DNA of 64,000 bases. Source: a virus. Each line of letters starts with the position of its first letter. Positions within the stretch are counted from its first letter, which is position 1. The notes beneath the pieces were generated by a model, which searched no databases, was not told where the DNA came from, and was given only the letters and a program-made list of their open reading frames with translations. The translations under genes were made by a program, and so were the position numbers. The DNA is taken from the IMG/VR virus record IMGVR_UViG_3300043392_000054, positions 62,001 through 126,000 of that record; one strand, written 5' to 3'. This document shows positions 42,566 through 42,922 of this stretch, piece after piece.

Positions 42566-42922
42566 TGGTTCCTTACAGCAAATTATAAAACTATATGGCT
42601 TAGAAAAGGGGAACCAGATGGAACGATACAGCAAAAAGTATCTAAATTCTATGATCAGGTTGGGAACTAGTGTGGAGCGCAAGCGATGAAGCACCCCGAC
42701 GAGACCCGGAGAATAGTGCCCTGGTTTAAAACTAAAAGTCACGTCATCAACTTCTCATTGTAGGTGAAGAAGCCCAAAACCGTCGAAGTATAGTAGACCG
42801 TTGAAGCAGAAGCCGAAGATGTAAAAAGAGATATAGCTGCCGAGCTGAATAAAGACGAACTTCGTTCCAGTTAAATTTAATCCTGAAAAAAACTTTGAAA
42901 AAAGTTGCTTCAGGATTTTTTT
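42566..42922 (+). ncRNA. Putative structured RNA next to TROVE-like gene
   Basis: About 350 nt with no plausible coding frame and much higher GC than its surroundings (36 of 60 bases in 42661-42720). Helices visible by eye: TGGTTCC 42566-42572 with GGAACCA 42610-42616; GATAC 42625-42629 with GTATC 42638-42642; GGGAACTA 42662-42669 with TAGTGCCC 42714-42721 (one A-G mismatch), enclosing a GCAA-loop hairpin near 42676-42685 and a CCG/CGG hairpin, i.e. a three-way junction; GGTTT 42723-42727 with AAACC 42777-42781; AGCT-GCCG-AGCT 42834-42845. It ends in a clear terminator. It does not match tRNA, tmRNA, RNase P or group I intron signatures that I know. A Y-RNA-like partner of the TROVE protein is the favoured reading. 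Confidence 0.65.
42879..42922 (+). terminator. Terminator of the non-coding RNA locus
   Basis: AATCCTGAA (42879-42887) pairs with TTCAGGATT (42909-42917), with an inner AACTTT/AAAGTT stem, followed by a T-run that runs directly into the next middle-type promoter. Confidence 0.9.

Follow-up and report, generated by a model that had tools for sequence, protein, structure and literature searches.

A probable new type of phage Y RNA, with two candidate docking modules and a pseudoknotted domain, encoded downstream of a Ro60-like gene

The window analysed here, a stretch of 64,000 nucleotides equal to bases 62001-126000 of the 182,829-base IMG/VR virus record IMGVR_UViG_3300043392_000054, contains a 417-nt gap (42553-42969; positions are those of the window unless a locus is named, and the features described lie on its plus strand) directly 3' of a gene for a 480-aa protein in which DUF2828 and DUF7788 are recognised. 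We consider it quite probable that this gap holds the gene of a trans-acting noncoding RNA of about 310 nt, a new type of phage Y RNA that would partner the phage's own Ro60-like protein. Y RNAs are the working partners of Ro60, which in humans is known as an autoantigen. A first-pass annotation made from the letters of the window had proposed a possible new RNA class at this place, built of modules that offer protein-binding sites; a new modular RNA family is indeed what we find, and it is better described as a variant Y RNA whose effector domain is new than as a wholly new class. Structural genes of a tailed phage (portal, protease, terminase, tail sheath) fall within the first third of the window, and the nearest relatives of the portal among named records come from uncultured huge phages, followed by Sphingomonas phage PAU and Prevotella Lak phages.

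The upstream gene (41110-42552) belongs to phrog_850, 'RNA-binding protein', and in Pfam only DUF7788 and DUF2828 are matched at E ≤ 0.001, with no match to TROVE (PF05731); TROVE chains gave weak profile matches (E 0.53). Its structure was modelled from an alignment (A2) of 16 of the 32 relatives, namely the window and 15 of 31 loci, with a mean pLDDT of 74.8. Foldseek returned six matches below E 0.001 for this model, all of them Ro60/TROVE structures. The model aligned with frog Ro bound to RNA over 403 residues (VIA Z 16.7), and human Ro60, the Ro60 of Thermus phage phiLo and Deinococcus Rsr were among its other structural matches, while rows for non-Ro structures began at Z 10.2 and were nearly all confined to the vWA part. 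The predicted model has the Ro60 layout of a helical-repeat part and a vWA domain, and the metal site keeps its DxSGS part unchanged in all 16 aligned sequences. On this model, the product of the upstream gene is a Ro60 by fold, and not a TROVE protein by sequence. The phiLo protein (PDB 9l5y; see also 9kop) has the same fold, but its identity to the window protein is 14% over the aligned part and it has been described as a TROVE protein; TROVE proteins are also reported from jumbo phages (PMC7824862). Ro60-like genes occur in phages of many hosts, where they are annotated merely as 'RNA-binding protein' or 'hypothetical'. Near the gene in the window lie those for ribose-phosphate pyrophosphokinase and nicotinamide phosphoribosyltransferase (44952-45800, 47990-49516), which likely constitute an NAD-restoring pathway, and two genes of the RNA ligase family are found at 55119 and 60995.

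The RNA family was reached from both sides of the locus. A search with the upstream protein gave 31 loci, 23 of which have the same RNA sequence 3' of the gene; the eight others encode more distant proteins, with a best-segment identity of 35-48%. Two scans with the RNA pattern alone found 37 and 38 stretches, and among the 54 loci known from that pattern only, all 44 with at least 450 nt of upstream sequence carry a Ro60-like gene there on the same strand. A profile search of 84 entries matched 76, of which 72 were full length; as many loci are overlapping stretches of one contig or come from near-identical contigs, these matches amount to 39 distinct full-length members. A later scan for the subfamily of the window added six loci. 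The lack of homologues had been named in the first-pass annotation as a reason to abandon its proposal, and the 39 members dispose of that worry. The conserved RNA, about 310 nt long, occupies the region 42566 to 42878, 3' of the Ro60-like gene.

This family is real and absent from Rfam. None of the Rfam 15 families reaches its gathering score in the gap, the single Rfam match of the window being a tRNA elsewhere, and the YrlA model (RF02553) found nothing between 42500 and 42980 even at a cutoff of E 10. A tRNA, a tmRNA or another Rfam family was rejected after ARAGORN and Rfam searches of the RNA, which found no tRNA-like domain in it either. A coding region was likewise rejected, the longest stop-free sense run being 28-71 codons and differing among members, as were bacterial homologues, for the five genome stretches with the pattern all lacked the rest of the RNA. 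Blastn against named phages returned for the window its terminator/promoter part or chance matches, and nothing for the member L014. The RNA model R1 had no match in eight whole phage records, nor in two of six whole virus records; in one of the virus records with the full RNA (G002), a second weak R1 match was seen at 52367-52570 (E 7e-4). In the open-licence literature we found no description of an RNA adjacent to a DUF2828 gene, or of ACAGCAA in Y RNAs.

The helices of the RNA rest on covariation and not on folding energy. In a structural alignment of 39 rows (38 distinct rows counted), seven helices were paired in 98.7% of cells compared with 91.4% in shuffles, 16 pairs had changed on both sides compared with 5.4 in shuffles, and the covariation score was 0.205; none of 500 shuffles reached the observed pairing, double-change count or covariation score, and sliding the helix partners by one column lowered pairing to less than 45%. 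Folding energy tells another story. With the terminator included, the window has a z of -1.48 and 9 of 100 shuffles fold equally well; when it is left out z is +0.19, which is also the mean of the 39 members, a single one of which lies below -2. A fold no better than that of shuffled sequence had been put forward in advance as an argument against the proposed RNA, and such a fold is indeed what the energies give; it would also suit chance hairpins in an ordinary intergenic spacer, a reading that has next to no chance of being right, refuted as it is by conservation and covariation across 39 members. Given this ordinary minimum free energy, the fold probably depends on protein or on tertiary contacts.

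The arrangement of stem, two unpaired bases and ACAGCAA occurs twice in the RNA of the window, once at the 5' hairpin and once at a long-range helix that closes the remainder. In the first module (42566-42616), helix P1 (42566-42572 / 42610-42616) is followed by a 2-nt spacer and by ACAGCAA at 42575-42581, a geometry kept in all 39 members. P1 is the TGGTTCC/GGAACCA hairpin pointed out by the first-pass annotation, and its conservation is borne out by 98.9% of cells being paired and by three pairs changed on both sides. In the second module (42620-42868), ACAGCAA (42628-42634) stands again 2 nt after the 5' strand of helix P2 (GGAACG 42620-42625 / CGTTCC 42863-42868), which encloses a large domain and is supported by covariation, reading GGAUCG/CGAUCC in most members, GGAUAG/CUAUCC in others and GGAACG/CGUUCC in the window. 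Both modules are found in 39 of 39 members if small variants of the motif are allowed; in the L141/L144/L146 type the first module is absent and only the second ACAGCAA module is kept. The long-range helix, the two ACAGCAA motifs and the pseudoknot described below had gone unnamed in the first-pass annotation, and all the letter strings that it did name are present in the window, with differing conservation among relatives. The small GATAC/GTATC hairpin (P3, 42625-42629 / 42638-42642) exists but shows little covariation because its letters are nearly invariant; it overlaps the second ACAGCAA and shares its opening G with the end of the 5' strand of P2.

Inside the second module, a variable arm (PV, 42659-42700; GTTGGG 42659-42664 / CCCGAC 42695-42700) with a GCAA loop at 42677-42684 is fully paired in five distinct members of the subfamily, in which its sequence has changed. 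The junction helix that had been drawn around this loop, GGGAACTA/TAGTGCCC, does not survive comparison: it has 7 of 8 pairs in the window, 5 of 8 in L009, 1 of 8 in L051 and 3 of 8 in L142. The last of these combines a variable arm of the L051 type with a pseudoknot of the window type, so that nearest relatives swap arms, an exchange that breaks the junction helix and marks the RNA as modular. The extended stem closed by GGTTT/AAACC (42723-42727 / 42777-42781) fares unevenly, as it forms four or five of its five pairs in five distinct members of the window subfamily but crosses P4 and overlaps stem S1 of the pseudoknot. Covariation over the 39 rows supports P4 (42742-42745 / 42818-42821) and P5 (42763-42765 / 42812-42814), which lie within 42742-42821, and P6 (42782-42784 / 42796-42798), the GAA..AGTA internal loop of which may be loop-E-like. 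The AGCT-GCCG-AGCT hairpin (P7, 42835-42846) was rightly singled out: all four of its pairs covary, and the 39 rows have GCCG as the loop without exception. The ACCGTYGAAG repeat, which together with the ordered helices had suggested protein-binding sites, has its two copies (42779 and 42797) in one of 39 members, namely the window; the idea of protein-docking sites fits the modules, which look like such sites, and not the repeat. The protein that would dock there is likely the Ro60-like protein encoded just upstream.

The H-type pseudoknot (42704-42734) consists of S1 (42704-42709 / 42720-42725) and S2 (42714-42717 / 42731-42734). S1 takes a different form in each subfamily (UGG/CCA, GUG/CAC, ACCCGG/CCUGGU or CCGCU/AGCGG). 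S2 is fully paired in 38 of 39 members with 21 distinct pair sets, and it was paired throughout in none of 20,000 partner shuffles, at a cross-partner rate of 25%, figures that are favoured by the way the strands were assigned, because for one subfamily the S2 partner could be chosen from three offsets, and because the strands were set by eye in the window, L009 and L051. In the L141-type members no S2 was found by eye.

The question arises as to whether this RNA is transcribed by itself or as a part of a neighbouring message. A late-promoter-like motif, AATATATAA(A), stands at 42551-42560, between the Ro60-like gene and the RNA, and is of the same kind as GATATATAA before the structural genes of the window. 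The sequence GATATATA has 10 copies on the plus strand of the window and none on the minus strand; the copies precede structural genes, and nine fall outside the listed ORFs, a list that omitted a reverse-strand ORF at 6873-7400 and some ORFs at the ends. Of 35 members tested, 29 have [GA]ATATATAA within 45 nt of the end of the Ro60 gene, in four others C or T comes after GATATATA, the RNA of L051 is immediately preceded by the motif, and L025 lacks it. At the other end, the sequence predicts an intrinsic terminator with a hairpin and a T run (42879-42922), and all 39 members have a T5 run no more than 75 nt from the RNA end. Motif and terminator together suggest that the RNA is probably its own transcription unit.

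One may argue that the RNA is rather a 3'-UTR element that regulates or stabilises the Ro60-like mRNA, possibly through autoregulation by Ro60 binding to its own message, all the more as Ro60-type proteins bind RNA and the RNA starts 9-42 nt 3' of the gene in most members. We regard this as improbable, considering that the late-promoter-like motif separates gene and RNA in those 29 of 35 members, that an ORF of about 106-121 aa intervenes in some members (no PHROG match in three tested) with the promoter-like motif remaining at the Ro60 gene and both ORF and RNA downstream of it, and that in L051 a terminator-like hairpin follows the Ro60-like gene. The opposite assignment, a leader or riboswitch acting in cis on the next gene by way of the terminator, draws on the position of a complex, conserved, pseudoknotted RNA directly ahead of a terminator and a gene. 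It is very unlikely, and a riboswitch for the next gene was rejected, given that the next ORFs, found for 37 of 39 members, form 16 clusters by sequence and begin at distances from 52 to over 1,800 nt, that the next gene of the window has its own promoter-like element past the terminator and outside the RNA (42925-42960, of a distinct type that is repeated elsewhere in the genome), and that the constant neighbour is the Ro60-like gene upstream. Elements of this TTTTTAGTAGATTTACAGTATACTAATA type, found in the window at 42925-42960 and in several gaps between 27522 and 58841, precede many non-structural genes and are distinct from the GATATATAA of the structural genes.

Support for a phage Y RNA comes also from unrelated phages. 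Within 1 kb outside the Ro60-like gene, ACAGCAA was present in 21 of 25 other phage loci and absent in four, whereas 7-mers of the same composition were present in an average of 4.1 loci; 44 copies lay on the strand of the gene and two on the other. The first 15 loci include some in which the motif was already known, and the fair test is therefore given by the 10 loci fetched after the idea had been recorded, eight of which have it. A stem of at least 6 bp ended exactly 2 nt before ACAGCAA in 38 of 44 copies, compared with 13-20 of 44 at offsets of 5-12; for stems of at least 7 bp the figures are 34 of 44 and 5-13 of 44, to be read with the knowledge that control stems are common (33% at 7 bp or more) because the DNA is A+T-rich. 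The content of these stems varies. Short A+T-rich loops are found in L101, L102, L036 and L039, a tRNA-like body within the stem in L033 (2810-2878; tRNA match E 2.8e-11), and matches to the YrlA model inside the modules of L112, L110 and L115 (E 8e-8 to 6e-4); L033 has in addition a weak match to our model upstream of its Ro60-like gene (E 0.084), which shares the 5' loop of the RNA. By position, architecture and model match, these modules next to Ro60-like genes look like phage Y RNAs, and the motif would serve as a simple pointer to the partner RNAs of such genes. In bacterial TROVE loci ACAGCAA shows no excess over background (5 of 20 against 4 of 20 on the other strand). The TROVE genes of 20 Bacteroidota loci (L121-L140) are flanked by tRNA-like arms, and TACTTCG, with 63 copies in 16 of the 20, is apparently a different Y RNA motif.

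Y RNAs offer the closest comparison. Ro60 and Y RNAs have been noted in mycobacteriophages (Chen 2014, as cited in PMC12282133). Like YrlA (RF02553) and the mycobacteriophage Y RNAs, the RNA of the window adjoins a Ro60 homologue and has a stem of distant strands that bears a separate effector domain, and the other phages extend this likeness through modules of stem, two bases and ACAGCAA that enclose YrlA-like or tRNA-like domains. It differs in having no YrlA match and no tRNA-like domain found, and in its two putative docking modules, its pseudoknotted domain of about 230 nt and its length of about 310 nt against 114 model positions. As to function, PMC4726728 describes Ro60 rings that bind Y RNA on the outside and, in Deinococcus, a Y RNA that acts as a tether and gate for PNPase; in this RYPER complex of D. 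radiodurans (Rsr, Y RNA and PNPase; PMC4726728, PMC12282133) the Y RNA scaffolds a Ro60-fold protein to an effector, which makes it a functional model for the RNA of the window. The likeness shown is one of partner fold and not of sequence, and neither PNPase nor another effector was found for the RNA of the window.

We read the locus as a stand-alone RNA gene that would be transcribed late in infection and end at an intrinsic terminator, its product carrying two putative Ro60-docking modules in series, each made of a 6-7 bp stem, two unpaired bases and ACAGCAA. The first would be a short hairpin, and the second, closed by the long-range helix, would hold the domain of about 230 nt with its variable arm, H-type pseudoknot and several short helices, in place of the tRNA-like domain of other phage Y RNAs. 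By analogy with the Deinococcus complex, the stems would lie on the outer face of the Ro60 ring. A further factor of RNA decay or repair would be tethered to Ro60 by the large domain, or Ro60 would be gated towards it. Expression of the RNA, binding by Ro60 and a tether or gate role are what we infer. It seems from this family that a large structured domain of quite another kind can replace the effector part in a Y RNA. Alternatively, the RNA might have a function of its own, as a ribozyme, a decoy or a cage-forming ornate RNA, with the Ro60-like gene a mere neighbour or chaperone: its invariant unpaired stretches and invariant GCCG loop exceed what docking needs, and another large RNA, ROOL, gives a sub-threshold match near the Ro60-like gene of L102. 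We give this a small chance in view of the linkage to Ro60 in 44 of 44 loci and of a motif common to unrelated phages.

A resemblance to the phage Y RNA proposed here is found in a eukaryote. PMC7919456 describes the Dictyostelium class I RNAs as having a stem that joins the ends and an adjacent 11-nt motif, and reports them as unique to social amoebae. Like module 1, this family (RF01414) has a 6-bp end stem with the 11-nt motif at its 5' strand, and its Rfam consensus contains CUUACAGCAAU, as does module 1. RF01414 weakly matched module 1 of L051, L014 and the window (28.8, 24.9 and 17.1 bits) and also modules of L033, every match falling below the gathering score of 41.5; in 59,851 bases of loci of the RNA family described here, with E up to 5, it gave two matches, both to module 1. 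Class I RNAs differ in being 42-65 nt long, with one module, in a eukaryote, and with a reported RRM partner, Rnp1A/Cibp (PMC7919456), and the likeness may be convergence. A bolder proposal, tentative and in our opinion rather doubtful, is that the stem with two bases and ACAGCAA is a general docking signal of DUF2828-type Ro60 shared by phage Y RNAs and amoeba class I RNAs, that the latter are Y RNAs, and that the RNA of the window is the first Y RNA known to combine two docking sites with a large effector domain, pseudoknotted and tethering a phage-specific partner. If the amoeba link holds, an abundant class of RNAs would gain a definite partner that can be tested.

Several loci drew attention for the RNAs around their Ro60-like genes. 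The Ro60-like genes of phages are frequently found close to tRNA genes, and in L099, L104, L110, L111, L112 and L118 stem-ACAGCAA modules stand among or beside these. In Citrobacter phage Ci1 (L097, 3816-4050 and about 4260-4495) and Cronobacter phage S13 (L117, 3823-4065), tRNA-like RNAs with long inserts, one of which contains TACAGCAAAA, lie downstream of the Ro60-like gene, followed in Ci1 by a sequence that looks tmRNA-like by eye; Klebsiella phage KP13-16 (L110, 4375-4608) has sub-threshold tmRNA and permuted tmRNA matches near a tRNA cluster. PMC12282133 puts forward Y RNAs in Listeria phage CKA15 and reports the phage's Rsr-like protein (CKA15_055) from purified particles. CKA15 resembles our case in having a phage Ro60-like gene with abundant noncoding RNAs nearby, and in its relative P100plus three stem-ACAGCAA modules stand upstream of the Ro60-like gene; the putative Y RNAs of CKA15 differ from the RNA of the window. 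In P100plus (L102), an unannotated gap about 1 kb upstream of the Ro60-like gene holds the ROOL match (887-1438; 86 bits, E 5e-16, gathering score 99.1), which might be connected with the noncoding transcripts reported as very abundant in the similar phage CKA15.
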